DNA of 64,000 nucleotides, taken from an uncultured Bacteriovoracaceae bacterium. Lineage in GTDB: Bacteria; Bdellovibrionota; Bacteriovoracia; Bacteriovoracales; Bacteriovoracaceae. Below, piece by piece: positions 41,660 through 61,859 of the stretch (positions are counted from its first letter, which is position 1; each line of letters begins with the position of its first letter). The stretch is taken from the NCBI GenBank assembly GCA_938034385.1, contig CALHLC010000012.1, forward strand, positions 1-64,000. The letters run 5' to 3'. The notes beneath the pieces were generated by a model that searched no databases, was not told the DNA's origin, and worked only from the letters and a program-made list of their open reading frames with translations. The translations under genes and the position numbers were made by a program.

Positions 41660-42537
41660 AAAAGTCGATTGCTGGAATAGGTGTTGGAAGCGGGAGAAAA
41701 GAGAGCTTTTATTTTAGTGTTTTAGAGTTTTTTGAAAAAGAAAACAGATGGTTTTTGAAAACTTGTCAGCAATTAAGAGAGTTTGAATATCCTGAAACAG
41801 AAGATAGTCTTCTTGCTTGGATTAATGATTTTGATCTCTCTACTGTGATTGTAGACTTTCCTCTTAGCATGCCGCCATGCTTTGATTGTAAACTAGATTG
41901 TCCAGGATCAGTAAAATGTCCAGAGCCTGAAGTGATTGCAAAAAGAAAAACCATTGAAGATCTTTTAAGAGATGATCAAGATAAAATAGAAAACAATCCT
42001 AAGAAATATGAAAAAGAGAGACTCAATAACTCTTCACTACTTCTGTCTAAATCTTTGAAAAGAAAATTAAGAAAAGGCTTTGTTCCTTATTGGAATAGAG
42101 TAGAGGATGTTGACTTATGGATTGACTATCATGATGATTTGATGAGTTTTTTCAAAAAAGGGCTTTCATCTTTTGGAAATGAGAACTCTATTCAGGTCTT
42201 AAGGTTTAAGTATCTTGAAAGGCACTTTCCTAAAAGCGTAAAAGTTTTAGAGACGAACTATGAAGTTGCATTGATAGAGTTAAAAAGACATAAGGTTATA
42301 AGTTCTAAAGACTTAGCATTACTAGGAACATTTGATTCTTCTGATTTAGCTCGAGAGAGCATAGTAAAGAAGATAGAAAAAAAGTTTGATCTCTTTATCT
42401 ATGAAAAGGATAGAGAAACATTGATTAAGCGCCCTAGGGCCTTTAAAAGCCTCTTGTTAACGTTGGCAGGGCTTGAAACACAAACGCTTCAGGATAAAGA
42501 TTTCTTTATTTCTAATTTTGATTATTCAAATACTTGA
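41656..42537 (+). CDS. DUF429-like (RNase H-fold) protein with Cys cluster
   Basis: The 293-residue protein resembles DUF429 predicted nucleases: strand GIGVGSGRKESFYFSVLEF, then VIVDFPLSMPP (acidic residue after a hydrophobic strand) and C-terminal DSSDLARES. Unusually, a compact CxxCxxxCxxxxxC cluster follows (PPCFDCKLDCPGSVKCP), which could bind zinc or another metal. Biochemical function is unknown. It is coupled to the GHMP kinase by a 4-bp overlap, and its end overlaps the convergent cytochrome-like gene by 16 bp. Confidence 0.55.
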   Translation: MKKSIAGIGVGSGRKESFYFSVLEFFEKENRWFLKTCQQLREFEYPETEDSLLAWINDFDLSTVIVDFPLSMPPCFDCKLDCPGSVKCPEPEVIAKRKTIEDLLRDDQDKIENNPKKYEKERLNNSSLLLSKSLKRKLRKGFVPYWNRVEDVDLWIDYHDDLMSFFKKGLSSFGNENSIQVLRFKYLERHFPKSVKVLETNYEVALIELKRHKVISSKDLALLGTFDSSDLARESIVKKIEKKFDLFIYEKDRETLIKRPRAFKSLLLTLAGLETQTLQDKDFFISNFDYSNT

Positions 42538-43448
42538 AGTCTTTCAAATGAGACCTGAATGGAATCTTCACTTAATCCACCTTCTTCAGGTTTTTTAAGG
42601 GTTTGTGTGAAGTCAGTTCCACCAATACCATTAGAAATATCTTCCTCTGTAGTGTTATTTAGAACAACACCAGTAAGTTCTACTAAACTATTTGCACTAA
42701 CTTCGAAGGACTCGTTAATATGTACTCTAAGCCCAGAGTAGGCGATAGGTTTATTTCCTGTTGAAATAGTGACATTTTTTATGAAGTATCTTGGAAAATA
42801 TGTTTCAGATTCTTTATCTGTATCCTCGTAGATCTCAAGTGAAATAGTGATATCTTTTAAAGAAGCTTGAGTATATGTTAGTTCTACTTTTTTACCTGTT
42901 AGTTCTCGTTCATCTTCTGGGTCAAGGCGAGTCGTTATATCTTCAGTACTGGATGATATTTTCATTAAAGCAGAAACAACACCTTGAGGTTTAAATGATC
43001 TCTTATCAAGCTTTGGTTCCCATTTCTTTAGAGCTTCAAGGATATTTTGTGCTACTTCAGGACAACCAAAAGATTCACAATTATGTTTATCAGCTGCTGA
43101 TCTTAAATGAAGTCTTGAGTTGTCTATTTTGGCGATATTTACTTTTCCTTGTGAAATAATAGAATCATGGCTTCTAGCAATCTTAGCATCTGCAAAATAG
43201 GGACTAGCAGGTGTCTCAGCATTTGAGTTATGACATTCTATACAATAATTCCTAAGTACTGGATGAACATGTTCCTGAAAAGCTAGAACAGACTCTATGT
43301 AAGTATTATCAGAACCTTCAGGAATATCATCTACCGTAGGTTCATCAACTCCACCATTGCTTCCACCAGTATCAGTAACAGTCAAATCGGTTTCAGGTTT
43401 ACAAGAAACAAATCCAAAAAGTAATGAAAAAATAATTAAAAATTTCAT
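42522..43448 (-). CDS. Heme-c lipoprotein (single CxxCH)
   Basis: The 308-residue protein has a lipoprotein signal MKFLIIFSLLFGFVSC (Cys16), a Gly/Asp/Glu-rich spacer, and one heme-c motif CIECH (Cys69-His73) in HVHPVLRNYCIECH, resembling planctomycete-type (PSCyt1) cytochrome domains. An extra NCESFGC pair near residue 120 may form a disulfide. The remaining about 170 residues form a beta-rich domain. It is the last gene of a four-gene minus-strand set with the DUF1501-like, lipoprotein and cytochrome-like genes. It likely carries electrons at the outer membrane. Confidence 0.75.
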   Translation of the reverse strand: MKFLIIFSLLFGFVSCKPETDLTVTDTGGSNGGVDEPTVDDIPEGSDNTYIESVLAFQEHVHPVLRNYCIECHNSNAETPASPYFADAKIARSHDSIISQGKVNIAKIDNSRLHLRSAADKHNCESFGCPEVAQNILEALKKWEPKLDKRSFKPQGVVSALMKISSSTEDITTRLDPEDERELTGKKVELTYTQASLKDITISLEIYEDTDKESETYFPRYFIKNVTISTGNKPIAYSGLRVHINESFEVSANSLVELTGVVLNNTTEEDISNGIGGTDFTQTLKKPEEGGLSEDSIQVSFERLQVFE

Positions 43449-43453
43449 CGATT

Positions 43454-45016
43454 TTAAGCATGTTCCTTAACAACTAATACGGAATTTAAAGTTGCTGGAT
43501 CTGAGAAAGGATTAGTTAGACCTAACCTTTTTAGAACCGCATCTAATTGATTTATTTTACCATGCATATTTAAATAATTAGCGGCCATTGCAATGCTTTT
43601 AGTTGTTTGGTTATTACTAATTGCATTAGCTCCAAGCTCAATTGCACCGGCTTCTGTAAATCCACCAATTTGATGAGTCGTAAATTCTTCTTTATAACCT
43701 TTAGGGTGGTAAGTTGCGAGGATTTCTCCTCCTACACTGGCATCTTCAACTCTATTTGCATAAAAACCAGCTCCAGAAATATCAGAGTTTCCACTTAATG
43801 CTCCACCTCTACAAGAAGCAGAACCATCAGTTGTTATTTGCATAGTGAAGCTTTTTCCTTCTTTGACTGCTGCAGCGATTATTTTACCAACTAATAAAGC
43901 TGCTTCATATCGCTTATTATGCCCACTTCGATCATTTCCGGCGTTAGCACCATTGTGATAATCATATCCACCTAAGACTATTCCTCCTGCTCTTGCATTG
44001 CCTTTTAATACTAATTTGGTAATTGCAGCTTTTTGAAAGTCATTCCCAAAGGCCGTTGTATAGATTGCATCTCCAGCTGGACTAATTTGAGTAATATCAT
44101 TTCCAAAAACAGTTGAGTTTGCTTTGTAATAGCCACATTCAATCAAGGTTTTCAATTGATCTGAAACTGTTTGTTTTTTAAATGATGCTAATCTTCTTGC
44201 ACTCATTTTCTCAGCTGCTTGTAAAATTTTCTTGGCTTCATCTTCACTAAGGTTTTGAGCAATAACTCCTAGGTCTACGAGCCCATTAACTGAAGATGGA
44301 TTGTTTGAAATCGGAGTAGAGGAGTATTTATTAATATTTCCTGCAGACTTTGATCTAATTCCATTGACTGTACTTCCTGTACCAATTAATTCGGTAAGTT
44401 TTCCTGCACCTGTTATTTCTCGAATAATATTATTACATGAACTCTGACTGTTTGAGTTGTCATTTTCAGATCTAGCAACAATGGAAATAAATTTTAATTT
44501 TCCTTTCAAGTCAGCTACGTCTATTCCATTATCTTGAAAAGCTTTAAGTAGGCCCTTGTAAAATGAAGAGTCTGTATGGATATCAGCACCAAAGTCAGAA
44601 GTCGTATTGTCCTTAGAAGGAATAATTCCTGGTGAAAATCCAAATTTAGCATAACCGGCTGCTGATAATGGAGCACCATTTTTTCTATAAGGAACAAAGG
44701 CTCCTCCTAGACAAGCACCACCTGCTAATTCAATATGAAAATTTCCTGCAAACTCATCAGTTGCTGGAGTATTACCATTATCTCCACATTTTTTTTCCAT
44801 GTCTTGAGCATTGGCTTTATTAGAAATCAAAGATAGGATTCCAGGAAGAGCAAGCATTGAATATCCACCAAGGACACTCACTCCCATAAAGTCTCTTCTT
44901 GAGTACATCTTTTCATGTTCGCGAATGAACTCATATTGTTCCTTGTCTTCTTTACGAAGTCTTTCGAGTTCTTGCTTAATTAAAAACTTTTCAAATTTTG
45001 TTAATTTATTGCTCAT
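43454..45016 (-). CDS. Tat-exported DUF1501-like protein
   Basis: The 520-residue protein has a long, charged N-region and then a twin-arginine signal YSRRDFMGVSVLGGYSML (Arg40-Arg41) with cleavage near ANA-Q (residue 70). The mature part contains FVPYRKNG..., GGYDYHNGANAGNDRSGHN near residue 355 (like the GG-DTH block of DUF1501) and TTDGSASCRGG. DUF1501 proteins usually pair with DUF1588/1592-type cytochrome-like proteins in Planctomycetes and Bdellovibrionota; here a cytochrome-like partner is two genes upstream. Export through Tat implies folding or cofactor loading in the cytoplasm. Exact activity is unknown. Confidence 0.75.
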   Translation of the reverse strand: MSNKLTKFEKFLIKQELERLRKEDKEQYEFIREHEKMYSRRDFMGVSVLGGYSMLALPGILSLISNKANAQDMEKKCGDNGNTPATDEFAGNFHIELAGGACLGGAFVPYRKNGAPLSAAGYAKFGFSPGIIPSKDNTTSDFGADIHTDSSFYKGLLKAFQDNGIDVADLKGKLKFISIVARSENDNSNSQSSCNNIIREITGAGKLTELIGTGSTVNGIRSKSAGNINKYSSTPISNNPSSVNGLVDLGVIAQNLSEDEAKKILQAAEKMSARRLASFKKQTVSDQLKTLIECGYYKANSTVFGNDITQISPAGDAIYTTAFGNDFQKAAITKLVLKGNARAGGIVLGGYDYHNGANAGNDRSGHNKRYEAALLVGKIIAAAVKEGKSFTMQITTDGSASCRGGALSGNSDISGAGFYANRVEDASVGGEILATYHPKGYKEEFTTHQIGGFTEAGAIELGANAISNNQTTKSIAMAANYLNMHGKINQLDAVLKRLGLTNPFSDPATLNSVLVVKEHA

Positions 45017-45035
45017 ACGTTCTCCGAGTTATTTT

Positions 45036-45677
45036 TTATAACATCCAAATTGGCAAACTAGATAAAGTACCTAGGCATGTTGAAAAAACTATTTTATTTA
45101 ATTTTTGAGTATTATTACCGGCTCCAGAATTAATTGAATTAATAGTAATTAGAAATTCTTTTATTGCCTCATTTTGAAAAGCAATATCTTCACGACCCCA
45201 GAAATTTCGAACAAAACCTTCAGCAATGGCCTGAGGATTAATTGAGCTTGCACTAAGTCCTGGCACGATTTCTTGATACCTTGCTGGAGTATTTTTAAAT
45301 TCATTGCAATACTCAGCTGCTAAAAGAGCGACTGCTTTTTGAGCAGAAGCGTTATACTTATTTAGTTCATTTGCATTTGGTAGTGATGATTTTAAGTCAG
45401 CGTAAGCAGCTTGGATTCTAGGATTTGTACTAGCAATTCCTGTTAAATTACTCATCGTCTGATTAAGAGCTGAATAAGTTTTCATTCCTACACTGGAAAC
45501 GAATCGATCTGGATCGTGAGCATCTCCAATTTTTGGGTGAGTGGTCGGAGTTGTTGTTGGGGGAGTACTTTTTCCATCTACAACTTCTTCAATACCAGTT
45601 TCACCTTGAACACCTCTAACTTTTCCTAAACAAGACATAAGTAAAAGTACTAAAATTGTGTGTGATAACATTTTCAT
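45036..45677 (-). CDS. Lipoprotein in the cytochrome cluster, unknown
   Basis: The 213-residue protein has a lipoprotein signal MKMLSHTILVLLLMSC (Cys16), followed by a Thr/Pro linker (TPPTTTPTTHPK) like that in the divergent tri-heme lipoprotein. The remaining part is helical, with two cysteines (EYCNEF and STCLGT). No heme motif is present. It lies between the DUF1501-like gene and the cytochrome-like gene with 10-20 bp gaps, so it is probably an accessory subunit of the same system. Confidence 0.7.
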   Translation of the reverse strand: MKMLSHTILVLLLMSCLGKVRGVQGETGIEEVVDGKSTPPTTTPTTHPKIGDAHDPDRFVSSVGMKTYSALNQTMSNLTGIASTNPRIQAAYADLKSSLPNANELNKYNASAQKAVALLAAEYCNEFKNTPARYQEIVPGLSASSINPQAIAEGFVRNFWGREDIAFQNEAIKEFLITINSINSGAGNNTQKLNKIVFSTCLGTLSSLPIWML

Positions 45678-45687
45678 ATATAAATCC

Positions 45688-46827
45688 TTACTCTTGATAA
45701 CAAGTTACTGTAGCTGCCATTTTTTGAAATAAATTTTTCATATTATAATTATTATTTGTAAACTCTACTCCAAGCGTTGATACAATGCTTCTCTCTTTGG
45801 CAGAAACAGGCTTGTGAAGACAAATTTTTTCAAATACTTTTTGACTCATACATTTTGAAAAGATAGATGAGTTTGTTAATGATTTCCCAAGAGATTTTAG
45901 GCCATTACCAGATTGATTTCCTTTAAAGTTAAAATCTTTAGTAACACCTTTTGAGTAATAATTAATCCAAGAATCATTTACAGTTTTAAAACCTGTTCTA
46001 TTATTTTCTGGGTTAATATTGTATTTCTCATGAACACTATTAGGAGTATATGCAAGTTGATTATTATCAAAAGAATAGTGAGCAAAGGCTCCTCTCATTG
46101 CATCCATAGCCGTATGACATGACATACAATATGTTTGGTGTAGATCTGGTACTGATTCATTTGGAATTAAGAAAACATCTCTTCCAATTTTTTGACCTGG
46201 TCTAGTACTATCTCCAGTTTGCTCCATTTCTGAACAAAACAAGTGGTTATTTATGAATTTTATTGCAGCTCTATTTGTTCCTGCTTCTAAGAAGCTTTGA
46301 GCAAAGCCTCGTGTTGTAAAAATTCCTGCAGTTGCATCTGGTGCAATTCCATAAACGTTTGAAATCGTATCAGGTTCTAATTTTTGAGCGAGGTTAACAT
46401 TGTCGGTAGTTGCTCTAACATAGTGAGCATTATTATTTCTTCTGATAGCGGCTACGCCATCTACTTTGTAAAGAAGGTCAGCAGTGAAGATTTTGTTAAA
46501 TGGTTCATCATCTCTAATCATACCAATTAAAGTTGCAGAGGCATCAGTTAATTCTCCGTCTATACTATTTGCATTTTCAGGGTCAAAAAACTTTTTTGAC
46601 CACTCTAGAAGAGTAATATTGTAAAACGAATCTACTTTTGTAGCTTCAGCAGCAGCGCCAGCTTTATTGCCTTGGTCTAATAATGTTTTCATTTTTACGA
46701 TGACAGGGTCATTGGTTCTGGTTTGAGCTCCAGCGATTCTTTCATACATCTCCATTGCTAATTGCAAATTTGTTAAGCTATAAGCTGATGGTATAAAAAT
46801 AATAAACATGGCTAAAAAAAGTTTCAT
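45688..46827 (-). CDS. Exported heme-c protein, DUF1588/DUF1585-like
   Basis: I place the start at ATG 46827, preceded by AGAGGAAAA, giving a clean signal peptide MKLFLAMFIIFIPSAYS; an upstream in-frame start adds 10 residues. The 379-residue protein has one heme-c motif CMSCH (Cys234-His238) in a block (YCMSCHTAMDAMRGAFAHYS) that recalls the CxxCHxxMDPxG motif of DUF1588/DUF1585-type cytochrome proteins. The N-terminal half is helical (RDDEPFNKIFTADLLYKVDG). It is the first gene of the minus-strand set and lies divergent to the tri-heme gene, with a shared regulatory region. Confidence 0.78.
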   Translation of the reverse strand: MKLFLAMFIIFIPSAYSLTNLQLAMEMYERIAGAQTRTNDPVIVKMKTLLDQGNKAGAAAEATKVDSFYNITLLEWSKKFFDPENANSIDGELTDASATLIGMIRDDEPFNKIFTADLLYKVDGVAAIRRNNNAHYVRATTDNVNLAQKLEPDTISNVYGIAPDATAGIFTTRGFAQSFLEAGTNRAAIKFINNHLFCSEMEQTGDSTRPGQKIGRDVFLIPNESVPDLHQTYCMSCHTAMDAMRGAFAHYSFDNNQLAYTPNSVHEKYNINPENNRTGFKTVNDSWINYYSKGVTKDFNFKGNQSGNGLKSLGKSLTNSSIFSKCMSQKVFEKICLHKPVSAKERSIVSTLGVEFTNNNYNMKNLFQKMAATVTCYQE

Positions 46828-46937
46828 AAGTTTTCCTCTTAAGGATAATTTTATCATCTTATCAATTTCCTATCGGTGAAATAGTTAAAAACTTTAGTGA
46901 TTTTAGCTAATTAGCAAATCTATCAAGTTTAGAAAGC

Positions 46938-47027
46938 GGCAATTTTTCTGGGCATAAAATGGTATCAAACTAAAATGGGCACAAATTTCGTTGGCATAAA
47001 TTATAAGGCAAAATTTCTGGGCATTAC
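46938..47027. repeat. Four regularly spaced TGGGCATAAA-type boxes in a divergent promoter region
   Basis: Boxes TGGGCATAAA (46949), TGGGCACAAA (46976), TTGGCATAAA (46991) and TGGGCATTAC (47018) lie in the same orientation with start distances of 27, 15 and 27 bp. The first and last are part of an 18-bp repeat (46938-46955 and 47007-47024) that differs at only two positions. They sit between the start codons of two divergent cytochrome gene sets. The arrangement suggests operator sites for a dimeric or multimeric regulator. Confidence 0.75.
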
Positions 47028-47065
47028 TTGAGAGTATTAAGCGGTAATTGAGAGGAAAATATCAC

Positions 47066-48238
47066 ATGATAGATATTAAGCTGTTTTATCGTATAATTTT
47101 ATCAATGAAGATTTTAATAATACTCTTATTTACCTTTTCCTGTAAGCCAATAAGAAACTCATCTGAAGAATATGGTAGAGGTCCTTCAACTGTACCTGGC
47201 GAAGAAAGTCCTGAGTTTCTTGCAGCTAAAGAGTTAATTGATTCGAAGTGTGTAAGTTGTCATACAAGTTATCACAACTCATGGAAGAACTCTTCTGAGA
47301 AAAGCTTGATCGACTCGAGATATATTGTTGCTGGAAAACCAGTCGAGTCAAAATTATATCAAAGTTTATTTAATGGCGGGATTAATACTGGAAGCTTAAT
47401 GCCTAAAGAAGATAGTGAATTCTCTGAAGAGGAAAAGAAAGTTATTTTAGATTGGATTGTTTCAATAAAAGAAGAAGAAGCTCCTCCTACAACGACGCCT
47501 ACAACACCGACAACAAAACCAGGTGTTGTTTCATCAGTAGAAGGGACAGAAGAATTTAAAAAATTCTTTAACTTAGTAGAACAAAAATGTATTTGGTGCC
47601 ATGATACAAATGATAAGTATGAAACAAGTCCTAGCTTCAGGTTAACAACTGCTCAACAATGGTTAGAAGCAACAGTTGATGGTGCTGCATTAATAGTAGA
47701 TGGTGATAAAGATTCATCTCAGTTTTATGATTCTATTGCTGACGGAGGAAATTCTAGAATGCCACCAGAGGGACTTCCTAAATTAACTTCTTCACAAGTA
47801 AAGATTGTTGAAGATTTTATTGCAAGTGCGAGTGTAACGACAACGACGACTTCAACTTCAACGACAACAACCTCAACTACTGAGCCAGGTCAGACAACCT
47901 CAACCACCTTAGCTAATAATGCTCGGTGGATCGCTGCAAGGGATGTAATAAATCAAAACTGTACAGGTTGTCACCACGCTACTAGTAATGGTTTTAGGAC
48001 TGCCGGTGTAAATCAATTATTAAACTTAACAGAAGCTGAATTTATCGACCTTGAAAATAATGACAATTTTATAAATCAAGGAAATGCTGCTGCGTCTATT
48101 TTCTATATTCGAACTAAGATCGCGGGAAAAACTCCAGCTGGTAATACAAATATGCCGAGAAATGGAGGATCATCTGATGGTTCTGAATTATCAGAAGCTG
48201 ATGGCAAGATTTTAGCTGACTGGATAAACGGACTTTAA
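47066..48238 (+). CDS. Tri-heme c-type cytochrome lipoprotein
   Basis: I use ATG 47066, preceded by AGAGG; this gives 390 residues with a lipoprotein signal ending in LFTFSC (Cys26). Three cytochrome modules follow, each with CxxCH and a distal Met candidate: CVSCH (Cys62) with Met112, CIWCH (Cys175) with Met232, and CTGCH (Cys299) with Met363. Modules are separated by Thr/Pro linkers (PPTTTPTTPTTKP and a long Thr/Ser run near residues 257-282). Each module resembles a PSCyt1-type domain ending in 'LDWI'. It is likely an outer-membrane-anchored electron carrier. Confidence 0.85.
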   Translation: MIDIKLFYRIILSMKILIILLFTFSCKPIRNSSEEYGRGPSTVPGEESPEFLAAKELIDSKCVSCHTSYHNSWKNSSEKSLIDSRYIVAGKPVESKLYQSLFNGGINTGSLMPKEDSEFSEEEKKVILDWIVSIKEEEAPPTTTPTTPTTKPGVVSSVEGTEEFKKFFNLVEQKCIWCHDTNDKYETSPSFRLTTAQQWLEATVDGAALIVDGDKDSSQFYDSIADGGNSRMPPEGLPKLTSSQVKIVEDFIASASVTTTTTSTSTTTTSTTEPGQTTSTTLANNARWIAARDVINQNCTGCHHATSNGFRTAGVNQLLNLTEAEFIDLENNDNFINQGNAAASIFYIRTKIAGKTPAGNTNMPRNGGSSDGSELSEADGKILADWINGL

Positions 48239-48285
48239 TTATTCTTTCTTTACAGACCTCTTAAACATTCGAAATAATAAGCTTA

Positions 48286-49467
48286 GTGCTAAAGTTAATT
48301 ATTACACTCATTTTATTTATAAGTTCAAGTGCGTATTCATATGCTAATTTCATAGGCTATGGATATGGGAGCTGTTTAACTTGTCATTATAATGCATTTG
48401 GAAATGGTCCATTAAATGATTATGGGCGGGCCCTTGGTGCAACCATGGTGGCCGGGAGATTGTTTACTTCTAATTCGACAGATGAAGAAAAGCTTGCTTC
48501 CAGATCTGGCTTCTTTTTTAATACACCAAAACAAACTTGGTTAAGGCCATCTATTGATTATAGAGGTTTATATCTTCCATCAAGCGGTGGTAGTGAAGCT
48601 CGTTATCTTCACATGCAAACAGATTTAAATGTGGTTTTAAAGTTTTCAGAAGATAAGTTATGGATGTCAGGAACTATAGGTTTGGCTCCAGCCGCAAGTT
48701 CACCAGGAGTTCCTCCAGGAGAGCAAACTTTATATTCTAGGGAGCATTACCTAGCTTATGCTCTTGGCGATCGTCACAGAATTTACCTTGGAAAAACTGA
48801 TCCTCTTTATGGCCTACGGATTCCAGATCACACTGTAACCGCAAAACGAGGAATAGGATTAGCTGAAAATGATCAAACCTATGGACTTACATATCACTGG
48901 TACTCAAATAAAATAGAAGGTGGAATACAGATTTTTGCAGGAGATGTTTTAGTAAATGAAGCAGGAAACTTTTTAGGAGCTTCAACTAAGCATGAATTTT
49001 CTCTTTCTGAAAAAGCAAGAATAGGAGCATCTGTTTATTATGGTACTCATGATACATCTACTAAATTAATGGCGGCACTTCATTCAAAGCTAGGTTTCAG
49101 AAAGGGATCAAGTTTATTAGCTGAATTTGGAATGATGATAAAAACAGATTCATTGACCTCCGGAGCGACACAAGATACACAGCTGATGTATGGATTTGTA
49201 CAAAATTCAATAAACTTATTTCGAGGCTTTAACTTATTACAAACATTTGATTACGGAAATACGACTTTTACAAGTAGTACTGGAGCTGCAGCAAGTTCTC
49301 TGCCTTTTTCTAATTGGCAAGTTTTACTAGGTTTTCAATTTTTTCCAATTCAAAGAATGGAGTGGAGAGCTGAGATAGGTTTATTGCGAAGGTATGGAGA
49401 AGATCAAGGAAAAGGAAATAAAGAGGATAGTAAGCAAATACTCTTACAGACACATATATGGTTATAA
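48286..49467 (+). CDS. Outer-membrane barrel with N-terminal heme-c motif
   Basis: The 393-residue protein starts at GTG 48286 with a signal peptide (MLKLIITLILFISSSAYSYA). Immediately after it lies a heme-c motif CLTCH (Cys30-His34) in GYGYGSCLTCHYNAFGNGP. The remaining about 330 residues show outer-membrane barrel alternation: LHMQTDLNVVLKF, GGIQIFAGDVLV, and a C-terminal strand ending HIWL. A heme site fused to the periplasmic mouth of a barrel suggests an electron-conduit protein. It follows the tri-heme gene by 47 bp and overlaps the next gene by 10 bp. Confidence 0.78.
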   Translation: MLKLIITLILFISSSAYSYANFIGYGYGSCLTCHYNAFGNGPLNDYGRALGATMVAGRLFTSNSTDEEKLASRSGFFFNTPKQTWLRPSIDYRGLYLPSSGGSEARYLHMQTDLNVVLKFSEDKLWMSGTIGLAPAASSPGVPPGEQTLYSREHYLAYALGDRHRIYLGKTDPLYGLRIPDHTVTAKRGIGLAENDQTYGLTYHWYSNKIEGGIQIFAGDVLVNEAGNFLGASTKHEFSLSEKARIGASVYYGTHDTSTKLMAALHSKLGFRKGSSLLAEFGMMIKTDSLTSGATQDTQLMYGFVQNSINLFRGFNLLQTFDYGNTTFTSSTGAAASSLPFSNWQVLLGFQFFPIQRMEWRAEIGLLRRYGEDQGKGNKEDSKQILLQTHIWL

Positions 49468-50687
49468 GATTTTTTATTTTATTTTTACTCTTTTCGCTTC
49501 AGGCATATTCTGGAATAGAGAAGATTTACGAAGTAAGAAAAAAAATAACACTAACTTATCAAGAACATGAACTTTATCGGCCTAAATTAGAAATAAGAGA
49601 TTATGTTCAACATGTTCAACAATATGGTGATAGTTTTGAATTCTCTGATTTTCAATTAAAGCTTTGGTATTTTCTTGGAAAAATTGAAGCTTATATTTAT
49701 CTGAAGCAAAGAAAAAGAGAGAATTTAGTAATTTCTAGAAATGCATTTTATCTTTGTAAGTATTTTGGTTACGAAGAAAATAATTCTAATAAATTCTTGA
49801 AACTTTTGGGAGTAAAAGGGAAGAATTTAACCTTTTCTAAGAAATCAAGAACTCAAACTCAACAAGACATCCAGAAAGAAGAAGAGAGTTATACTTACCA
49901 AAAGGATACCTCGATAGATGAGGCAATGGATGCATCATTAAGTTGGGAAGAAGAAACTGGTGATGGTGAAAGTGAAGTAGACCAGTCCTCAGAAGTGAGT
50001 ACCGAAGAAATAGGTGGAGAAAATATTGATGATATAGATAAAGAGTGGGAGGACACCGGGGGAGATGATATAGAGCTTCCAGATGATGGTGATGATATGG
50101 AACTTCCAGATGATGGTGATGTTAGCGATAGATTAGAAGATAATGATGAACCTGAACAAGTTGGAAAATTAGGGAAAAAGTTTGCTTTTGGTTATAGTTA
50201 TATCAGTTGGCAGGAATTAATAAGCTTGGTCAATCAAGGCAATCTTAATAGTTCTGCAGTTTTAAACTTTCGAGGTCATAGTTTAGGGATTAATTTTGAA
50301 TTTTTAGATCTTGGTCGTTTTCATATTCATACTCATGCTCACTTTGTCTACGGTATTAGTAATACTGAAACTGAACCAAATTCAAGTTTTGACTTTTTTG
50401 AAGCCAATACTCCATCTATAGGAGCTACCTTTGGACTTGGATTAAAGTATGATATTGAAAAAAATAAGTTAAGTTTGGGGTTAGGAGTAGATGCTCTTTA
50501 TAGGCAATCTTCCTTTCAAACCCTGGGAACTGGTAATACTTATACAACTGATAGAGAAACATTTTTAGGTATTTCACCATACCTAGATATTGAAAATCGT
50601 TTTGGAAATTTCGCTTTTTTTACAAGAACAGGTTATGCAGATCAGAGTTTATATTGGCAACTAGGTATGCATTTATACGTATTTTAA
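49458..50687 (+). CDS. Exported barrel-like protein with acidic repeat region
   Basis: The 409-residue protein has a signal peptide (MVIRFFILFLLFSLQAYS). Residues 20-115 are helical and charged. Residues 130-230 are very acidic and include two copies of DDIELPDDG/DDMELPDDG encoded by 27-bp repeats (50064-50117). The C-terminal 170 residues alternate as outer-membrane strands (FAFGYSYISWQELI, GATFGLGLKYDI) and end in an aromatic-type strand (WQLGMHLYVF). There is no heme motif. It overlaps the heme-barrel gene by 10 bp, so the two are probably partners. Confidence 0.7.
   Translation: MVIRFFILFLLFSLQAYSGIEKIYEVRKKITLTYQEHELYRPKLEIRDYVQHVQQYGDSFEFSDFQLKLWYFLGKIEAYIYLKQRKRENLVISRNAFYLCKYFGYEENNSNKFLKLLGVKGKNLTFSKKSRTQTQQDIQKEEESYTYQKDTSIDEAMDASLSWEEETGDGESEVDQSSEVSTEEIGGENIDDIDKEWEDTGGDDIELPDDGDDMELPDDGDVSDRLEDNDEPEQVGKLGKKFAFGYSYISWQELISLVNQGNLNSSAVLNFRGHSLGINFEFLDLGRFHIHTHAHFVYGISNTETEPNSSFDFFEANTPSIGATFGLGLKYDIEKNKLSLGLGVDALYRQSSFQTLGTGNTYTTDRETFLGISPYLDIENRFGNFAFFTRTGYADQSLYWQLGMHLYVF
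50064..50117 (+). repeat. 27-bp direct repeat encoding DD(I/M)ELPDDG
   Basis: Two tandem 27-bp units differ at a few positions (GAGCTT against GAACTT) and encode the acidic ELPDDG element of the barrel-like protein. Confidence 0.85.
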
Positions 50688-53458: not shown

Positions 53459-55093
53459 TTACTTTGATGTTTTTATAAGGTCTGCTTCACTCATTTCGAC
53501 AGAACCATTAGTCATCCTCTTCTCGAAAATTCTAAGAACAGATCGACCTGTTTGATTTTTTTCATTTTCATAAACAAAAAATCTCATTTTATCATCGCCG
53601 TAAAAAACATTTATATCTTCAACTTTTACCTCATAACAGTTTTGTTGAGTAAATGGTCTATATTCAACATGCTTAACTGTGTATTTATGCGGCTTCAATC
53701 CAGGGATAGATTGATTATCTAACATAGGAGAAGTATTTAATTTTATTTCTTGAGCATTATTAACATTATCAAAGTCTGAATCAACTGTTGCTGCAGGAGG
53801 AGTTGGATTATTTTCATCATTCCTGGCCGTAGAAGGTAGAGCAAACTTATGTAATAGATGATCTGGAATACTATTCCCGTTTGAGTCCCACTTATATTCA
53901 TTTGTTGAGTATAGTCTTTCTTCACAGTCTGGAATTAAATCATTATCTGTATCTAATATTCCAACTTTATTAACTCCATCTTCCCAGCATCCAGTGAACT
54001 CAAAAGCATTCTCAGGATCACAAGCTTTATCTTTACATGGAAAGCCATCAGCACTAACTGCAGCCTCAGCCCCATCACTAATACCATTTTCATCACTATC
54101 AGCTTTGAGTGGATTTGATCCAAGTAAAATTTCCCACTTATCAGATAATAAATCACCATCAAGGTCTGAAACTAATTGTTTAGATTCAAGGTCCCAAATT
54201 GAGTTTACGTTTTCTAAAGTTACATCTAATAAAGTAGTTGAAACTTTCTTGAAAAAGACTCTTGTTAACTGATCATAATCAATGGTTCCACTTCCTGTAT
54301 CAAATGCGTAAAATTCACCTTTCCCAACATTAGCAAGTTCTTCTAATAAATCTCTTGCAATAGGTAAATCTTGATTTTTATAATAGTAACCAGTATTTAC
54401 ATTTAATGATTCAATTGCCTCTCCAACAATAGGGTTTACTGGTAAAGTCATAATTTGGTTTTGTAATTTATTAAAAATTTGTGAATATGGAGGACCATCA
54501 TCAGTTGGAACTCCATCAGATAATACAACGACAACATACTTTGAAGTAATTAATGGAATTTCTTTAGCTTCCGCTTCTTCAATTGCTTTTTGAGCATCAG
54601 CTTCAATAATATTTAAAACGGCATCTTCCCACTTTAAATATGGAGTTCCTCCACCATCACTTGTAGCTCCTTTTTGTGTTGAAACAACATTAGCAAAGTC
54701 AGCATTTGTTTTAACAAAAGGTGCATCAGGTCCATTTAAAGCTCCTGGGGCAACGTCAGCTGAGTCTCCAGCAAATTCAATTAAACTAAAATATTCATAG
54801 GGATTATCATCTCTATCATTTAACCAATTTACTAGAGAGTCATATCTTTGAGATCTATCGGGGTCTGTAGCATCACGATTATTTGATGGTCCAGCATTAG
54901 ATCCTGAAATATCTAAAACAAATAAAAACTTAACTTTTTGTTCTATTAATGAGGGATCCAGTGTACAGAAATCAAAGACTGCTTCACCTACTTTTGGTTC
55001 TATAGGCTTTTGAGCATCTATAGTAGCATCTAGACTTCTTTGGCCACAGGCCAACACGAAGGTCATTAAAAAGAGTGCATAAATTATTTTCAT
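53459..55093 (-). CDS. VWA-domain lipoprotein with thrombospondin type 3-like repeats
   Basis: I choose ATG 55093, preceded by AAGGAAG, giving a lipoprotein signal MKIIYALFLMTFVLAC (Cys16); the product is 544 residues. A VWA domain follows (about residues 54-300) with MIDAS DISGS (Asp61) and GGGTPYLKWEDA. Then come several calcium-binding repeats of the DxDxDxxxD type: DLDGDLLSDKWE, DTDNDLIPDCEE, DSNGNSIPDH and DSDFDNVNNAQE. It probably mediates adhesion or protein binding at the cell surface in a metal-dependent way. Convergent to the IMPDH-like gene with 2 bp between stops. Confidence 0.85.
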   Translation of the reverse strand: MKIIYALFLMTFVLACGQRSLDATIDAQKPIEPKVGEAVFDFCTLDPSLIEQKVKFLFVLDISGSNAGPSNNRDATDPDRSQRYDSLVNWLNDRDDNPYEYFSLIEFAGDSADVAPGALNGPDAPFVKTNADFANVVSTQKGATSDGGGTPYLKWEDAVLNIIEADAQKAIEEAEAKEIPLITSKYVVVVLSDGVPTDDGPPYSQIFNKLQNQIMTLPVNPIVGEAIESLNVNTGYYYKNQDLPIARDLLEELANVGKGEFYAFDTGSGTIDYDQLTRVFFKKVSTTLLDVTLENVNSIWDLESKQLVSDLDGDLLSDKWEILLGSNPLKADSDENGISDGAEAAVSADGFPCKDKACDPENAFEFTGCWEDGVNKVGILDTDNDLIPDCEERLYSTNEYKWDSNGNSIPDHLLHKFALPSTARNDENNPTPPAATVDSDFDNVNNAQEIKLNTSPMLDNQSIPGLKPHKYTVKHVEYRPFTQQNCYEVKVEDINVFYGDDKMRFFVYENEKNQTGRSVLRIFEKRMTNGSVEMSEADLIKTSK

Positions 55094-55457
55094 AATAACT
55101 TCCTTTTGTACTGACTTAATCGGTCGGATAAATAAATACTTAAATGCGCGCAGAGATTTCTTCGATTTTTGAGATGATTGAGACAACATATTCTAACCTT
55201 TTTGCCCGATAACTTTAATCTGCAAGGGCGTTGTAAGTTATAGGTATTAAATCACAGTCTAAGAAAATTTAAGGAAAGACTGACTTTTACTAATAATTTA
55301 AACTACTTAGAATCGAGTATGATTTAAAGTGAGTTTTTATGTATTGCCAATAATTTATTGCAAGGGGATGATTTACTAAAAAGGATGTAATTTTTATTGG
55401 AAAGAGCACATCTCTTGAGTTTTTGAACTAATATGGACGAAAATTTGAAGGAAAGTC
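55094..55457. other. Intergenic region without a recognised gene
   Basis: The 364-bp gap between the VWA lipoprotein start (minus) and the next lipoprotein start (plus) is A+T-rich. I see no convincing ORF, RNA gene or repeat in it. It must hold divergent promoters. AAGGAAAG before ATG 55458 is the ribosome site of the right-hand gene. Confidence 0.5.
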
Positions 55458-56366: not shown

Positions 56367-57986
56367 TTGAGTAAAAACCCTTATTCATTATTAAGATTTG
56401 ATCAAGAAAAGCTATCTCTTGAGCAATACCTCGATTCTGGTAAAGAGCTCTCAAATATTCCTTTATGGCCTCTATACTTTATTATTAGAAATGGTACCTC
56501 TCAGGAAATCTCAAGAGCGATGCCCATGCTTAGTTCAAATCAAAGAGAGTTTTTAATTGATTTAGATTGTTGGGATAAACAAGATTACGACCTTGAGAGC
56601 TTTGAGAAATGGTTAGAAATTATTTATTCAACTCAAGATTTAAAACTTTGTGGAGAGTTTGTTACTAATGATAATTTTAAGCTCTATTTAAAAGGAAAGT
56701 TTAATATCTATTCCTTTGATAATGAACATCCCGTTTATCCTGATCATGATAACTTTTTTATTACAGATGATTTTTCTTTTCTTATTGAGTATGAAGAGAA
56801 CTTTAAATTAGTCGATGAATTCAAATACTTAATGACAAATTTTTACGCTCAACTTGGAGTAGAGAAGAGTCAACTTGAGTTGATGACTATTATTTCTGAT
56901 AGTTACTTTGATATTCAGGAAACTGAATATAATTTAAAAAGAGGTCGCTTGGATGATGTTGGTTATGTTGATTATTATGAAGCTCTTAAAGCAAATCAAA
57001 TTCTCAGTCTTCAAAAAATAGAAAAACTCATTGATGCTAGATTAAAGAAATCTTATATCGCCACAGAGGTTGATGAACAAAGTAATTTCGAAGGTTATAA
57101 ATTAGAAGCAACAAAGAAGTTTGATTCTATTGAAGATGAAATCAAAGCAGAGCTTATAAAAGTTGAGGATGAAAAAGTGTTAAAGTTTCTTCCTATTGAT
57201 TATATTAGGACTCTCAATGCTAGATTCTCCTTGAATTCAAGTTTAAAAAAAGAAGATAAAGATTTGATGAATGACTCTCTTGAAACTCAAGGCCATATTG
57301 CTTTAGCATTTGATTACCTTAAAGATCATTTAAAGACTCAATTAAATGAAAAAAGCCTTTTTAAGTATTTTAGTTTCAAAGATCTCGCTCTGATTGGAAG
57401 GTCCTTAGTTGAACATCAAATTGTTTTGATTAAAAAAGTTTTGAAAAACTGTAACCTTTCAAGAGAAGATTATTTCCTTGGAGATTTCTTTATTATCTTT
57501 TTGCAAGATCTCTTTGATATGAATCGAAAGATAAAAATCCATGGTGAAATCCAAAATATTTCAACTTTAGAAAAATATAGATACTTTAAGAATAAGTCGG
57601 ATTTACTTTTAGATCTTGCTCCTCTTATGAAAAATTTCAAAAGTGAACTAGCAAGCTTTAAAGACTTAGAATATTTAAATTATAGTTTTGATGAAATCGA
57701 CTTTGAGGCCCTCTTTTTAACAAAGTATCTTAAGTTTCAATTGAAAATCGACTCTAAGAGCTATGGAATCAGTGTTGAGGAGTTTAAAAAGTTCATAAGT
57801 AATCCTGATCTAATAAATGATGAAGCAAGAAAGAACTTTATAACTAGTTATAAACTCGATATTGTTGATGAAATAGAGCTCTATCTAGAAGAAGTATTAA
57901 AAGATCACTTCACACATCTATTCAAAGAGAATGTCGACGATTCTGAACTCAAATTCACAAGTGGTGTTTTAATTAAAAAAGTTTAA
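56367..57986 (+). CDS. DUF6178-like cytoplasmic protein
   Basis: The 539-residue protein starts at TTG 56367, with AAAAGG six bases before. There is no signal or membrane segment. The block LWPLYFIIRNGTSQEISRAM... LDLDCWDKQDYDLESFEKWL near residues 32-90 resembles DUF6178 proteins from Deltaproteobacteria-type genomes (LYYLIKEVG... DLDLW). The rest is helical and acidic. Function unknown. Its stop overlaps the convergent hemE gene by 4 bp. Confidence 0.6.
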   Translation: MSKNPYSLLRFDQEKLSLEQYLDSGKELSNIPLWPLYFIIRNGTSQEISRAMPMLSSNQREFLIDLDCWDKQDYDLESFEKWLEIIYSTQDLKLCGEFVTNDNFKLYLKGKFNIYSFDNEHPVYPDHDNFFITDDFSFLIEYEENFKLVDEFKYLMTNFYAQLGVEKSQLELMTIISDSYFDIQETEYNLKRGRLDDVGYVDYYEALKANQILSLQKIEKLIDARLKKSYIATEVDEQSNFEGYKLEATKKFDSIEDEIKAELIKVEDEKVLKFLPIDYIRTLNARFSLNSSLKKEDKDLMNDSLETQGHIALAFDYLKDHLKTQLNEKSLFKYFSFKDLALIGRSLVEHQIVLIKKVLKNCNLSREDYFLGDFFIIFLQDLFDMNRKIKIHGEIQNISTLEKYRYFKNKSDLLLDLAPLMKNFKSELASFKDLEYLNYSFDEIDFEALFLTKYLKFQLKIDSKSYGISVEEFKKFISNPDLINDEARKNFITSYKLDIVDEIELYLEEVLKDHFTHLFKENVDDSELKFTSGVLIKKV

Positions 57987-59002
57987 ATACCTTGAATAAA
58001 CTCTACTGCTCTTCTCACATTTTCTTCAGGAGTTTTAGGTAATACACCATGCCCAAGTCCAGCAACCCATTTCTTTTTTAACTCAGGATGCTCTTGCATT
58101 TTAGTCGTAAAGGTCTGTAGATTCTTCTCTAAATCTTCCCATGGTAGATGTAACCAAACTGGATCAATATTACCTTGAACATAATAGTCCTTGCCTAGAG
58201 TCTTTAGAGCATCGACAAGGTCAATACGCCAATCAATTCCTAGAACATCAATTGATTTTGCCTGAAGGTTTTCTAAAAATCTAAGGTGAGTCTGCTTAGT
58301 ATAATAAATAATTTTCTTATCAGGATGCTTTGCTTTCACGCTATCAGCAATTTGATTAATCACTGGTTTAATAAATCGCATATAATCTTCAAATCCAAGT
58401 TCACCCACTGCAGTATCGAATAAACAGATAGCATCAGCTCCAGCATTTAATTGCATAGAGATATTTTCTAAAAGGTTAGGGAGCAATATATCCAAGAATC
58501 TCTGCCACCTTCCATCATATAATCCAGTTTTTGAAGCAATGAGTGAACCTTTATGTCCACCTTCAGTGGCATAGGTATAAAGAGTAAACGGAGCACCAAC
58601 AAATCCAAGAAGAGTCACATCTTTTGGAAGTTTTTCTTTTAATAATGAACAAGTATCAGATTGAAATTTATAAAAAGTATTAGCAGGCTCTATGATTTTA
58701 ACTTTTTTGTATTGATCAGCATTGCTTAAATAAGTCTCAAGTTTTGGTGGCCCATCATTATAGTGAAGTCCAAGATTCATCTGCTCTAGAGGAAATAATA
58801 AATCAGAAAACATAATGGCAGCGTTAAACTTAAAATCCTCAATTGGACCAAGAGTTACTTCACAGGCAAGTTCTGGGTTCTTACAAAGCTCCATAAAGGA
58901 GTGTTTCTTTCTAAAGCCCTGATAATGCCAATGATATCTTCCGGCCTGTCTCATAAACCATACGGGTTGCATTCCATTTTCTCTTTGTTCAAAAATATTC
59001 AT
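57983..59002 (-). CDS. hemE: Uroporphyrinogen decarboxylase
   Basis: The 339-residue protein matches HemE: PVWFMRQAGRYHWHYQGFR at the N-terminus (the catalytic Arg pair), AAIMFSDLLFPLEQMNLGL (conserved Asp), GFVGAPFTLYTYATEGG, and C-terminal GLGHGVLPKTPEENVRR. It decarboxylates the four acetate side chains of uroporphyrinogen III to give coproporphyrinogen III. It is the last gene of the minus-strand hem run, 3 bp after the response regulator gene. Confidence 0.96.
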   Translation of the reverse strand: MNIFEQRENGMQPVWFMRQAGRYHWHYQGFRKKHSFMELCKNPELACEVTLGPIEDFKFNAAIMFSDLLFPLEQMNLGLHYNDGPPKLETYLSNADQYKKVKIIEPANTFYKFQSDTCSLLKEKLPKDVTLLGFVGAPFTLYTYATEGGHKGSLIASKTGLYDGRWQRFLDILLPNLLENISMQLNAGADAICLFDTAVGELGFEDYMRFIKPVINQIADSVKAKHPDKKIIYYTKQTHLRFLENLQAKSIDVLGIDWRIDLVDALKTLGKDYYVQGNIDPVWLHLPWEDLEKNLQTFTTKMQEHPELKKKWVAGLGHGVLPKTPEENVRRAVEFIQGI

Positions 59003-59005
59003 CGT

Positions 59006-59701
59006 CTATTCCTTAATTATTAATTTATATCCTATGGCCCTTATTGATTGTATCTCTAATACATTAGAATCATCCGTCTCAGCCCACTTTCTAAGTTTCA
59101 CTATATAATTATCAACTGTTCTATTTGATGGATAACTATCTTCTCCCCAAACACTATTAATAATTTCATCCCTAGATAATACTCTATGTTTATTAATATA
59201 GAGAAGCTCTAATATCGCACATTCCTTTTGAGATAGGTCAATAAAAGTCCCGTCGGCGTCTTGAACTTGATAATTTGAAAAGAAAATCCTTAATTTACCA
59301 ACACCAATTTCATCAGGTAGGTTTCTAAGTTTTTGATCTAATTTTAAAATTCTATTTAACCTAAGTTCAAGCTCTTTTAGTTCAAAAGGTTTAACGATAT
59401 AATCTTGAGCTCCAAGTTCAAGCCCTTGAAGCCTAATTTGTGGATCATTTTGTGCTGATAAAAATAAGAATAAACATTCACTATTAATCGATCTCATCTC
59501 TTTAGCTAAATCAAGTCCACTTCCATCAGGAAGCCCAATGTCTAAAAGGCTTACCTTTATATCTTTATGGTTTTTAACAAAATAAGATTTGGCATCATTA
59601 TAAGTTTTAAACAAATGAGATTCAAAACCTTTTGATTTTAAATAATCGTTAAGAATTTCACCTAAAGATTCTTCGTCTTCAACAATAACAACCTTATACA
59701 T
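59006..59701 (-). CDS. OmpR-family response regulator
   Basis: The 231-residue protein has an N-terminal receiver domain with acidic pocket EDEES, phosphoacceptor Asp54 (SLLDIGLPDGSG), LFLSAQND and VKPFELKEL (conserved Lys). A C-terminal winged helix follows (LSQKECAILELLYINKHRVL ... RTVDNYIVKLRKW). It should bind DNA as a phosphorylated dimer. It pairs with the upstream kinase (8-bp overlap) and lies between hemL and hemE, so heme genes may be its targets. Confidence 0.93.
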   Translation of the reverse strand: MYKVVIVEDEESLGEILNDYLKSKGFESHLFKTYNDAKSYFVKNHKDIKVSLLDIGLPDGSGLDLAKEMRSINSECLFLFLSAQNDPQIRLQGLELGAQDYIVKPFELKELELRLNRILKLDQKLRNLPDEIGVGKLRIFFSNYQVQDADGTFIDLSQKECAILELLYINKHRVLSRDEIINSVWGEDSYPSNRTVDNYIVKLRKWAETDDSNVLEIQSIRAIGYKLIIKE

Positions 59702-60605
59702 TTGAGGCCTGGTAACTTAATTCTATACTAAGCTCGTGTTCGTTATTCATTTTAAATAATCCATTCATTCGTTCAGTGAACTTTTTGACTAAGTATAACC
59801 CAATCCCTGTACCTTGATGAGAATTATGTTTATAAAATAATTGTCCTAACTTATGAGTTTCACCTGAAAATTGACCTCCATCACTATATTTGAGAGTGAT
59901 AAAATCTTTACCTTGATAATTTAACTCATCTAAATCAATAGAGACCTGCTTATTCTTTGAATGCTTTAAAGTATTTTCGATTAAGTTTCTAAGAATAATT
60001 TTGAGTGCGTATTGATCAATTAAGACATCACTGGATTGAGTATTATCTTTGAGCACGCATTTTAATTCCTTGTCTGGATGTTTAGAGAAAATATTTTGTA
60101 TAAATCTTTTAAGATTAATACATTCCATATTTAAATAGCCAGACAGTTCTAATTTTGAAAGTTGCAGCATATTATCAAAACGATCCTCTAATTCATAACT
60201 ACCAGCATTTAAGAAATTTAAGCTTTTATTAACTTGGGGATTATTATTATCTTTTAATAAATCAAGTAAGAATTGAGTTTGAAGTCTTACATTTGCCAGG
60301 GGAGTTTTCAATTCATGTGTAAGTCCAGTGAAAAACTTTTGAAGACCGTCATTTTTTCTCTGATCTTTAAAGAATAAAAAAACGACTAAAGAAGTTGCGG
60401 CTACCAGAAGCAGCAAGAAAAAACTTCCTTCCCATTTGAGCATTCGATAGAGGTTTGAACTAAAAACCGATTCGATTTGTTGATCATTAAGAATACTAGC
60501 TAACTTATAAGCGACATATAACCACCATGAACCCATTGCTAAAACAATGAAGAGCCAAATGATGGTTGCACTATAGAGCCATTTTCTGTTTTTATTTAAC
60601 TCCAT
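59694..60605 (-). CDS. Membrane histidine kinase
   Basis: The 303-residue kinase has two N-terminal transmembrane helices (about residues 10-35 and 61-79) with a short periplasmic loop of about 25 residues. The dimerisation box is FFTGLTHELKTPLANVR with phospho-accepting His97. The catalytic domain has the N box LRNLIENTLKHS, a degenerate G1 (KYSDGG), and G2 GTGIGLYLVKKF. The small sensor loop suggests sensing in or near the membrane. It overlaps hemL by 10 bp and the response regulator gene by 8 bp. Confidence 0.9.
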   Translation of the reverse strand: MELNKNRKWLYSATIIWLFIVLAMGSWWLYVAYKLASILNDQQIESVFSSNLYRMLKWEGSFFLLLLVAATSLVVFLFFKDQRKNDGLQKFFTGLTHELKTPLANVRLQTQFLLDLLKDNNNPQVNKSLNFLNAGSYELEDRFDNMLQLSKLELSGYLNMECINLKRFIQNIFSKHPDKELKCVLKDNTQSSDVLIDQYALKIILRNLIENTLKHSKNKQVSIDLDELNYQGKDFITLKYSDGGQFSGETHKLGQLFYKHNSHQGTGIGLYLVKKFTERMNGLFKMNNEHELSIELSYQASNV

Positions 60606-61849
60606 AATCTTTTTTTCAATTCTTCAATCACCTCATCCGTATGGGCCTGACTGACAAAACCAACTTCATAAGCATTAGGCGAGAGATATATTCCTTTAGG
60701 AAGTAAAAGATTAGAGAGCTTATTAAACTTCTCTCCTAAATTTTGTGGTATTTTATCTACATTTGAGATCGCTTGATCAGAGCTAACAATCCAAAACAAT
60801 GAACTGTGAGAAATAATTGAATGCTGAGTATTTTTATCTAACCATTCTTTAAAAGTAGAAACAATTTTTTGAGTCTGCTTTTCAAGATTTGGATAAAAGT
60901 CTTTTTGGGCCAAGATTTCTAAATTAGCAAGACCAGCACACATCGCAACAGGATTAGCACTTAATGTTCCTGCTTGGTAGACACCACCAAGTGGAGCAAG
61001 GTGGTCCATAATCTCTTTACTTGCAGCGATAGCTCCAACTGGCATCCCACCACCAATGACTTTTCCATAAGTAACGATATCAGGAGTAATCCCTGTAATC
61101 TCGGCCATTCCACCAAAAGCAACTCTAAATCCAGAGATGACTTCATCAAAAATTAAGAGAGCGTTATGTTTTTTTGTAATGTCCTTTAATTTTCTTAAAA
61201 AATCTTCGGTTTGAACTAAGAGTCCATAATTTGCTGGTAGGGGTTCTACTATAATAGCTGCAATATCATCATGATCCTGAAAGCACTTCTCTAAAGCATC
61301 AAGATCGCCCAGATCTACGACTAATGTATCTTTAGAGCAATTTTCAGTAACTCCTAAACTAGAAGCTGTAGAAGTTCCAGCTAAACCAGATCCTGATTTT
61401 ATTAGCATCGAATCAACATGACCGTGGTAGCAGCCATTAAACTTTATAATCTTATTTTTTTTAGTATAACCTCTGGCAAGTCTTAATGCTGTCATAACTG
61501 CTTCAGTACCAGAACTTACAAATCTAATTTTATCTATAAAAGAAATTCTATCAATAATAAACTTTGCTAAATCAAGTGAGTACTTTTCACAAGCTCCATA
61601 AGTCCATCCTCGATTTACAGCATCAACTATTGCACTTTGAACCTTTGGATGTTTATGGCCAAGGATAAGTGGACCAAAGCTCATACAAAAATCTATAAAG
61701 TCTTTTCCTTCCTCATCGGTGATATAAGCTCCGTCAGATTTTTTAATAAACCTAGGACAAAAATCAAGTCCCTTGAAACTTCTTACTGGAGAGTGAACTC
61801 CACCCGGAATATAAATTTGTGCTTGTTCAAAAAATTGTTCATTATTCAT
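60596..61849 (-). CDS. hemL: Glutamate-1-semialdehyde 2,1-aminomutase
   Basis: The 417-residue PLP enzyme matches HemL: IPGGVHSPVRSF at the N-terminus, VSSGTEAVMTALRLARGYT (cofactor phosphate), FNGCYHGHVDSMLIKSGSG, LLIFDEVISGFRV and YGKVIGGGMPVGAIAA with PLP Lys263. It converts glutamate-1-semialdehyde to 5-aminolevulinate in the C5 pathway, consistent with hemA in the same run. It follows hemC by 10 bp and overlaps the kinase gene by 10 bp. Confidence 0.96.
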   Translation of the reverse strand: MNNEQFFEQAQIYIPGGVHSPVRSFKGLDFCPRFIKKSDGAYITDEEGKDFIDFCMSFGPLILGHKHPKVQSAIVDAVNRGWTYGACEKYSLDLAKFIIDRISFIDKIRFVSSGTEAVMTALRLARGYTKKNKIIKFNGCYHGHVDSMLIKSGSGLAGTSTASSLGVTENCSKDTLVVDLGDLDALEKCFQDHDDIAAIIVEPLPANYGLLVQTEDFLRKLKDITKKHNALLIFDEVISGFRVAFGGMAEITGITPDIVTYGKVIGGGMPVGAIAASKEIMDHLAPLGGVYQAGTLSANPVAMCAGLANLEILAQKDFYPNLEKQTQKIVSTFKEWLDKNTQHSIISHSSLFWIVSSDQAISNVDKIPQNLGEKFNKLSNLLLPKGIYLSPNAYEVGFVSQAHTDEVIEELKKRLWS

Positions 61850-61859
61850 AATTTCACTT

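Follow-up and report, generated by a model that had tools for sequence, protein, structure and literature searches.

What would a bacterium of the Bacteriovoracaceae do with heme proteins, a protein exported by the twin-arginine translocation (Tat) pathway and outer-membrane barrels that are all encoded side by side? The question is raised by a stretch of 64,000 nucleotides (hereafter the window), positions 1 to 64,000 of contig CALHLC010000012.1 of an uncultured Bacteriovoracaceae bacterium, in which seven such genes, here called g1 to g7, occupy positions 42522-50687. An original prediction had read them as a seven-gene envelope redox module, serving as an outer-membrane electron conduit or as an oxidative enzyme system facing the outside. 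Our analysis shows that the locus consists of two linked units: a core operon, g4-g3-g2-g1, and a second unit in which g6-g7 are accompanied by the cytochrome c g5. As to function, we give an even chance to the locus being an envelope module that moves electrons across the outer membrane.

Results

ORF (open reading frame) calling over the window places the seven genes in two divergent sets, 4 on the minus and 3 on the plus strand. Six CxxCH motifs are distributed over four of the proteins as 1+1+3+1 (CIECH in g1; CMSCH in g4; CVSCH, CIWCH and CTGCH in g5; CLTCH in g6), and none of the other ORFs in the window, counted from 80 aa upward, has one. At the DNA level, the pattern TGYN6TGYCAY occurs 127 times in the 2.67-Mb genome (both strands, any frame; 30 for a reversed-pattern control); 7 occurrences, 6 of them in frame, were found at the locus, against about 0.4 expected per 8.2 kb. 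Lipobox-like signals are seen by inspection on g1, g3 and g5. The gene count, the two sets, the six motifs, the three lipoprotein-like signals and the single Tat signal were all as originally predicted, and the ORFs have the coordinates given. When all seven proteins were searched against Pfam and NCBIfam, g5 alone scored above cut-off.

We compared gene order at 40 loci from relatives and scored co-occurrence in 116 relatives' genomes (p values not corrected for phylogeny). The core order g4-g3-g2-g1 is mostly kept, and its flanks vary. Among 47 positive genomes, 45 have g2 and g4 together, 1 has g2 alone and 1 has g4 alone (Fisher 6e-30); g4 lies no more than 6 kb from g2 in 52 of 55 g2 matches. 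The p values ignore shared ancestry; the adjacency stands regardless of them. The second unit accompanies the core in many genomes: both g6 and g2 are present in 39 genomes, with 7 having g6 only and 7 having g2 only (p 1e-16), and g6, then g7, are found in 39/46 g2 genomes. Of 50 cases, 27 have g6 no more than 12 kb from g2, and 22 have the two on different contigs, for some of them perhaps because the assembly is fragmented.

These split cases and the genomes with only one of the two genes would be expected if g4-g3-g2-g1 and g6-g7-cytochrome were two unrelated operons that happen to be neighbours and have separate jobs. However, chance adjacency would be below 1% in a 3-Mb genome, far from the 27 cases seen, and the association of g2 with g6 is not mere inherited synteny, because the intervening genes and their orientation vary. 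In addition, g6-g7 also stand beside a different DUF1501-like/heme pair in two genomes. In one (G074), they adjoin a Tat protein weakly matching DUF1501 (25 bits) and a heme protein of the PSD2/PSCyt3-like kind; in the other (G101), a DUF1501-like gene and a g4-like neighbour with heme are both found no more than about 6 kb from g7-g6. This parallel arrangement supports functional equivalence, and we consider two unrelated operons very improbable.

All seven genes in this layout, with the flanking genes conserved as well, were found in the genus only (L032, L033 and L034). The predicted "seven-gene module" is too uniform a description, the two units being separable elsewhere. Scattering of the genes in relatives had been named as grounds for abandoning the idea; the core four are not scattered, whereas g6-g7 partly are. 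The closest named records to g4 come from uncultured Bacteriovoracaceae, at 77% identity, by which the genome would most likely be placed in this family. Several genomes have the core operon twice, in diverged form (loci L057, L065 and L066 and genomes G001, G003, G046, G067 and G101), and in G038 and G103 both copies are on one contig, about 10 kb or less apart. The core was also considered as a simple marker of predation and rejected as such: it is missing from about 60% of relatives and present in Gammaproteobacteria.

The second unit centers on g6 (48286-49467, plus strand), a putative fusion of cytochrome and porin with a signal peptide, one N-terminal CxxCH and a predicted 16-strand outer-membrane barrel. 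Its AlphaFold2 model (pLDDT 75) has 16 strands after residue 85 and a poorly ordered heme-bearing N-terminus. Foldseek matched the model to porins with E values down to 5e-10, the top query TM among the matches listed being that of OprP (2o4v, 0.60). C30-x-x-C33-H34 follows a hydrophobic leader and is invariant in 22/22 family members, whose own conserved signature is CLTCHYNPxGNGPLNDYGR. A tblastn search for g6 relatives on plasmids gave none, and no solved structure matched g2, g4 or g6 by sequence. The gene g7 (49458-50687, plus strand) overlaps g6 and also comes after it in relatives; it encodes a helical N-terminal part, an acidic linker and a small barrel-like C-terminal outer-membrane part, which ends in F (by inspection). 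Both barrel-like proteins of the original prediction were thus recovered, g6 with its 16 predicted strands and g7 by inspection of its C-terminal part. The remaining member, g5 (47048-48238, plus strand), is a tri-heme cytochrome c lipoprotein with three class-I c domains (CBB3/PSCyt1). Relatives have in its stead a mono-heme protein of 115-135 aa near g6-g7, commonly paired with a YceI-like gene.

In many relatives, a signal peptidase II of the LspA type, extended at its C terminus, is encoded between g1 and g6. At L063:11463-13421, a single 652-aa reading frame covers the LspA domain and g6; if true, this gene fusion would tie LspA to the function of g6. Similarly long g6 ORFs are present in L120 (659 aa) and L143 (654 aa). 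Together with the YceI-like gene, this LspA paralogue would fit a role of the locus in envelope maintenance, that is, repair or detoxification of the outer envelope (redox stress, lipoprotein or isoprenoid handling), in which the hemes would be peroxidase or sensor centers and not parts of a conduit. But in the window's genus the locus has neither LspA nor YceI, and none of the seven proteins matched a peroxidase family in Pfam or NCBIfam; we hold envelope maintenance to be distinctly unlikely.

In the core, g4 (45688-46857, minus strand) encodes an exported mono-heme protein of a diverged PSCyt3/PSD2 (DUF1588/DUF1585)-like type. Its CxxCH is invariant in 35/35 family members, 14 of which weakly match PSD2 and 10 PSCyt3 (E 4.6e-4 and 1.5e-5 for the best members). 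The window's own g4 reaches 13.8 bits (E 0.07) against the curated Pfam cut-off of 27 for PSCyt3. The family profile, on the other hand, matches PSCyt3-like heme proteins encoded beside genuine DUF1501 genes with 97.6% probability (E 2.6e-12, 229 columns). Judged by these profiles, no other homology in the core is as firm as that of g4 to PSCyt3/PSD2, and the pairing with DUF1588-type cytochromes that had been suggested for the locus was right for g4.

The Tat-exported protein is g2 (43454-45016, minus strand; 520 aa), which has no Pfam family. Its twin-arginine motif is SRRDF, and RRx[FLM] is found in 42/43 family members. D186, D352 and H354 are invariant and D397 nearly so, making these four residues candidate metal ligands. 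The original prediction had called g2 "DUF1501-like." None of the 43 family members matches PF07394 (DUF1501) even at E 0.01. A g2 profile compared with 27 DUF1501 sequences did give a probability of 92.5%, mainly because of the Tat signal: with the signals stripped from the profiles, it fell to 2.8% (E 0.016; unrelated-family controls, 0.1-0.3%), and we rejected g2 as a DUF1501 member. Longer DUF1501-like proteins, tried as a bridge, did no better (51.8% and 39%). In the weak residual alignment, DYH of g2 stands opposite DTH of DUF1501. The g2 model has as its best Protein Data Bank match TAB5 phosphatase (E 7.7e-4; weak TM, 0.24-0.32), and all of the 50 structural matches listed belong to the alkaline phosphatase superfamily or its relatives. 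We regard a distant relation between g2 and DUF1501 as plausible, and it is the operon position and the weak fold match that point that way. A profile search of the same genome for DUF1501 had its sole match in a gene on contig C14, where a classical DUF1800-DUF1501 pair, distinct from the module, is located (L170:272-3105).

The two lipoprotein-like proteins complete the core. g1 (42522-43448, minus strand), its last gene, encodes a mono-heme protein of 308 aa with one CxxCH; its homologues have 1-3 hemes, with one 1475-aa case having 5, and reach about 1500 aa. One large protein in a g1-like position has Ig-like and Glucodextran_B domains. g3 (45036-45677, minus strand; 213 aa) has three conserved cysteines, C16 (lipobox), C124 and C201.

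Outside the Bdellovibrionota, the core is found in Gammaproteobacteria, where g4 is followed by a large two-heme protein and then g2; the one such protein scanned (L106) has a Laminin_G_3 domain. Most of these loci also have, divergent from the core, a second large protein with two hemes, the middle domain of which is of the hydrazine synthase alpha type (L106:5900-8590 and L127:5690-8629). In a g2 tree of 78 proteins, all 16 rows from Gammaproteobacteria group together (100/99), with the Bacteriovoracaceae loci L051 and L055 as their sisters (100/100). Both have the same layout as the Gammaproteobacteria, g4-large Laminin_G_3 protein-g2 (L055:5224-8187 and L051:10391-13651). The tree points to one transfer between Bdellovibrionota and Gammaproteobacteria. 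Since the gammaproteobacterial clade is nested among Bacteriovoracaceae, the direction was likely out of Bdellovibrionota, although the tree is only midpoint-rooted. In the flanks examined, an ApbE relative is present at 11 of 21 gammaproteobacterial loci and a DUF3570 relative at 10 or more of the 21, and an ApbE-DUF3570-DUF4266-thioredoxin-like cluster adjoins the core (domain identities by Pfam for L127). Similar flavinylation-type genes occur at one Bdellovibrionota locus, L138. DUF3570 has been shown experimentally to be flavinylated by ApbE, and such clusters have been assigned to extracytosolic electron transfer (PMC8238504).

The domains of these variant operons bring up the main rival to electron transfer across the outer membrane: the core could be an enzyme system that oxidizes a polymer such as a glycan, outside the cell or in the periplasm; the hemes would carry off the electrons of this substrate, and g6-g7 would be mainly a porin for the products. 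The lectin-like Laminin_G_3 domains in the central proteins would suit this role, as would Glucodextran_B and Ig-like domains in the one case above and the PSCyt3-like nature of g4, planctomycete PSCyt/PSD proteins being suspected of such a role. Carbohydrate-binding domains are frequent in the PSCyt genes of Verrucomicrobia (PMC5615132); DUF1501-DUF1800 pairs are located with chitin synthase genes (PMC5122149). Yet the window proteins have no carbohydrate-binding domain match in Pfam, and polymer oxidation would explain the gammaproteobacterial flavinylation neighborhood in part only. We regard it as rather unlikely.

Between the two sets lies the divergent intergenic region (46858-47104, no strand). 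Since g4 probably starts at ATG 46827 and g5 at ATG 47105, rather than at their longest-ORF starts, this region would be about 277 bp long. It contains an 18-nt imperfect direct repeat, GGCAATTTTTCTGGGCAT, at 46938-46955 and 47007-47024, which was not found in the closest relative, L032; a promoter and terminator scan gave no excess over shuffles. Farther along the window, 53459-55189 encodes a protein resembling lipoproteins, in which a von Willebrand-like region was recognized by reading and a TSP3 repeat matched weakly. About 7 kb off the module, 57983-63960 holds apparent heme biosynthesis genes, HemE-, HemL-, HemC- and HemA-like (by reading only), around a two-component system.

Discussion

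We suggest a scheme for electron transfer by this locus. A cytochrome-porin, small c cytochromes, heme lipoproteins and a Tat protein come together here, and a flavinylation cluster joins the core elsewhere; electron transfer across the outer membrane or in the outer envelope is therefore the most economical explanation. The genome (2.67 Mb, 99% complete) is equipped to make and use c cytochromes, encoding a COX1-type oxidase, a protein for cytochrome c assembly and, next to a protein with a cytochrome b C-terminal domain, a protein with 8 hemes. In our scheme, the 16-strand barrel of g6 would be embedded in the outer membrane, its one heme lying at the periplasmic opening, and the module would move single electrons over this membrane. 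Small c-type cytochromes (g5, or the mono-heme protein in relatives) would shuttle electrons between g6 and the periplasm, where they could be exchanged onward with the genome-encoded b/c-type complex and the terminal oxidase. The core would supply a complex of the PSCyt3-like heme protein g4, g2 with its putative alkaline-phosphatase-like fold, the heme lipoprotein g1 and the lipoprotein g3 with its two conserved cysteines, as a catalytic or docking unit that feeds the conduit or is fed by it. Because g2 is exported by Tat, it probably bears a metal or cofactor. Our guess is that the electrons flow inward to O2. The scheme builds on gene content, its conservation, the heme motifs, the predicted barrel and the genomic association, as seen here; heme attachment, complex formation, electron direction and the substrate are what we infer.

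Several points weigh against electron transfer as the function. Both the bound hemes and the electron transfer are predictions. It is not obvious how one heme could bridge the membrane, and the way in which this happens in Cyc2-type proteins is unproven, too. Enzymes of the alkaline phosphatase fold usually act as hydrolases and do not catalyze redox reactions, and g2 resembles this fold weakly. Given the split contigs and the single-gene genomes described above, the two units may work apart. The gammaproteobacterial copies checked have no g6 adjoining the core.

A fuller picture would be that of an undescribed outer-membrane redox system in which a Cyc2-like single-heme porin acts together with a heme protein of the PSCyt3-like kind and with a Tat protein whose fold is like that of alkaline phosphatase. 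The system would be scattered in Bdellovibrionota, among them relatives of known predators, would have been exchanged with Gammaproteobacteria and would be tied to flavinylation in the latter. We put this forward tentatively, as falling slightly short of an even chance; if true, Bdellovibrionota would gain a Cyc2-like surface redox protein. Envelope proteins of the PSCyt/PSD and DUF1501 types are abundant in several phyla, yet have no known function. The present locus is a compact version, with a four-gene core that has two mono-heme proteins and a separable single-heme porin, and its relatives in cultivable Bdellovibrio and Bacteriovorax make the question testable.

Relation to known systems

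No clear match to an already described system was found, nor any description of this gene combination in the open-access literature. g2 recalls the DUF1501 Tat proteins of DUF1501-DUF1800 and DUF1501-PSCyt3 pairs in its Tat export, its D-x-H motif and, as a weak match, its putative alkaline-phosphatase-like fold, and the latter pairs also in its operon position beside a PSCyt3-like heme protein; it differs in that the similarity of its body is almost gone without the Tat signals. g4 shares heme motif context and a profile-profile match with planctomycete PSCyt3/PSD2 proteins, but has about 390 aa and stays under the curated Pfam cut-offs. The ApbE/DUF3570/DUF4266/thioredoxin clusters have no counterpart at the window locus, and its genome is without DUF3570.

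The iron oxidase Cyc2 (Acidithiobacillus, Mariprofundus) has a signal peptide, a single N-terminal heme and a 16-strand porin barrel modelled on an OprP template, and its diagnostic motif AXPXFAR[QK][TY] stands 5 residues before CxxCH (PMC8406198). g6 likewise has a signal peptide, a single N-terminal CxxCH and a predicted 16-strand OprP-like barrel, in a protein of more than 365 aa. The diagnostic motif is present in 0/22 g6 family members, a looser AxPxF-like pattern upstream of the heme in 20/22. In place of the Cyc2 PXL motif 4 residues after CxxCH, the family has GPLNDYG farther off, without the P-x-L spacing. A further difference lies in the gene neighborhood of g6, which includes g7 and, in many cases, the g4-g2 operon. 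As modelled, g6 has Cyc2-type anatomy, yet we do not class it as a Cyc2 member. With MtrCAB and other porin-multiheme complexes, the locus shares the combination of outer-membrane barrel and cytochromes; it differs in that g6 is a predicted single-heme 16-strand fusion and that the largest cytochrome is the tri-heme g5 instead of a decaheme protein. The original suggestion of an outer-membrane redox system apart from the MtrCAB/OmcB layouts fits this Cyc2-type single-heme fusion and the conserved layout. The parts resemble known kinds, and their assembly appears to be new.

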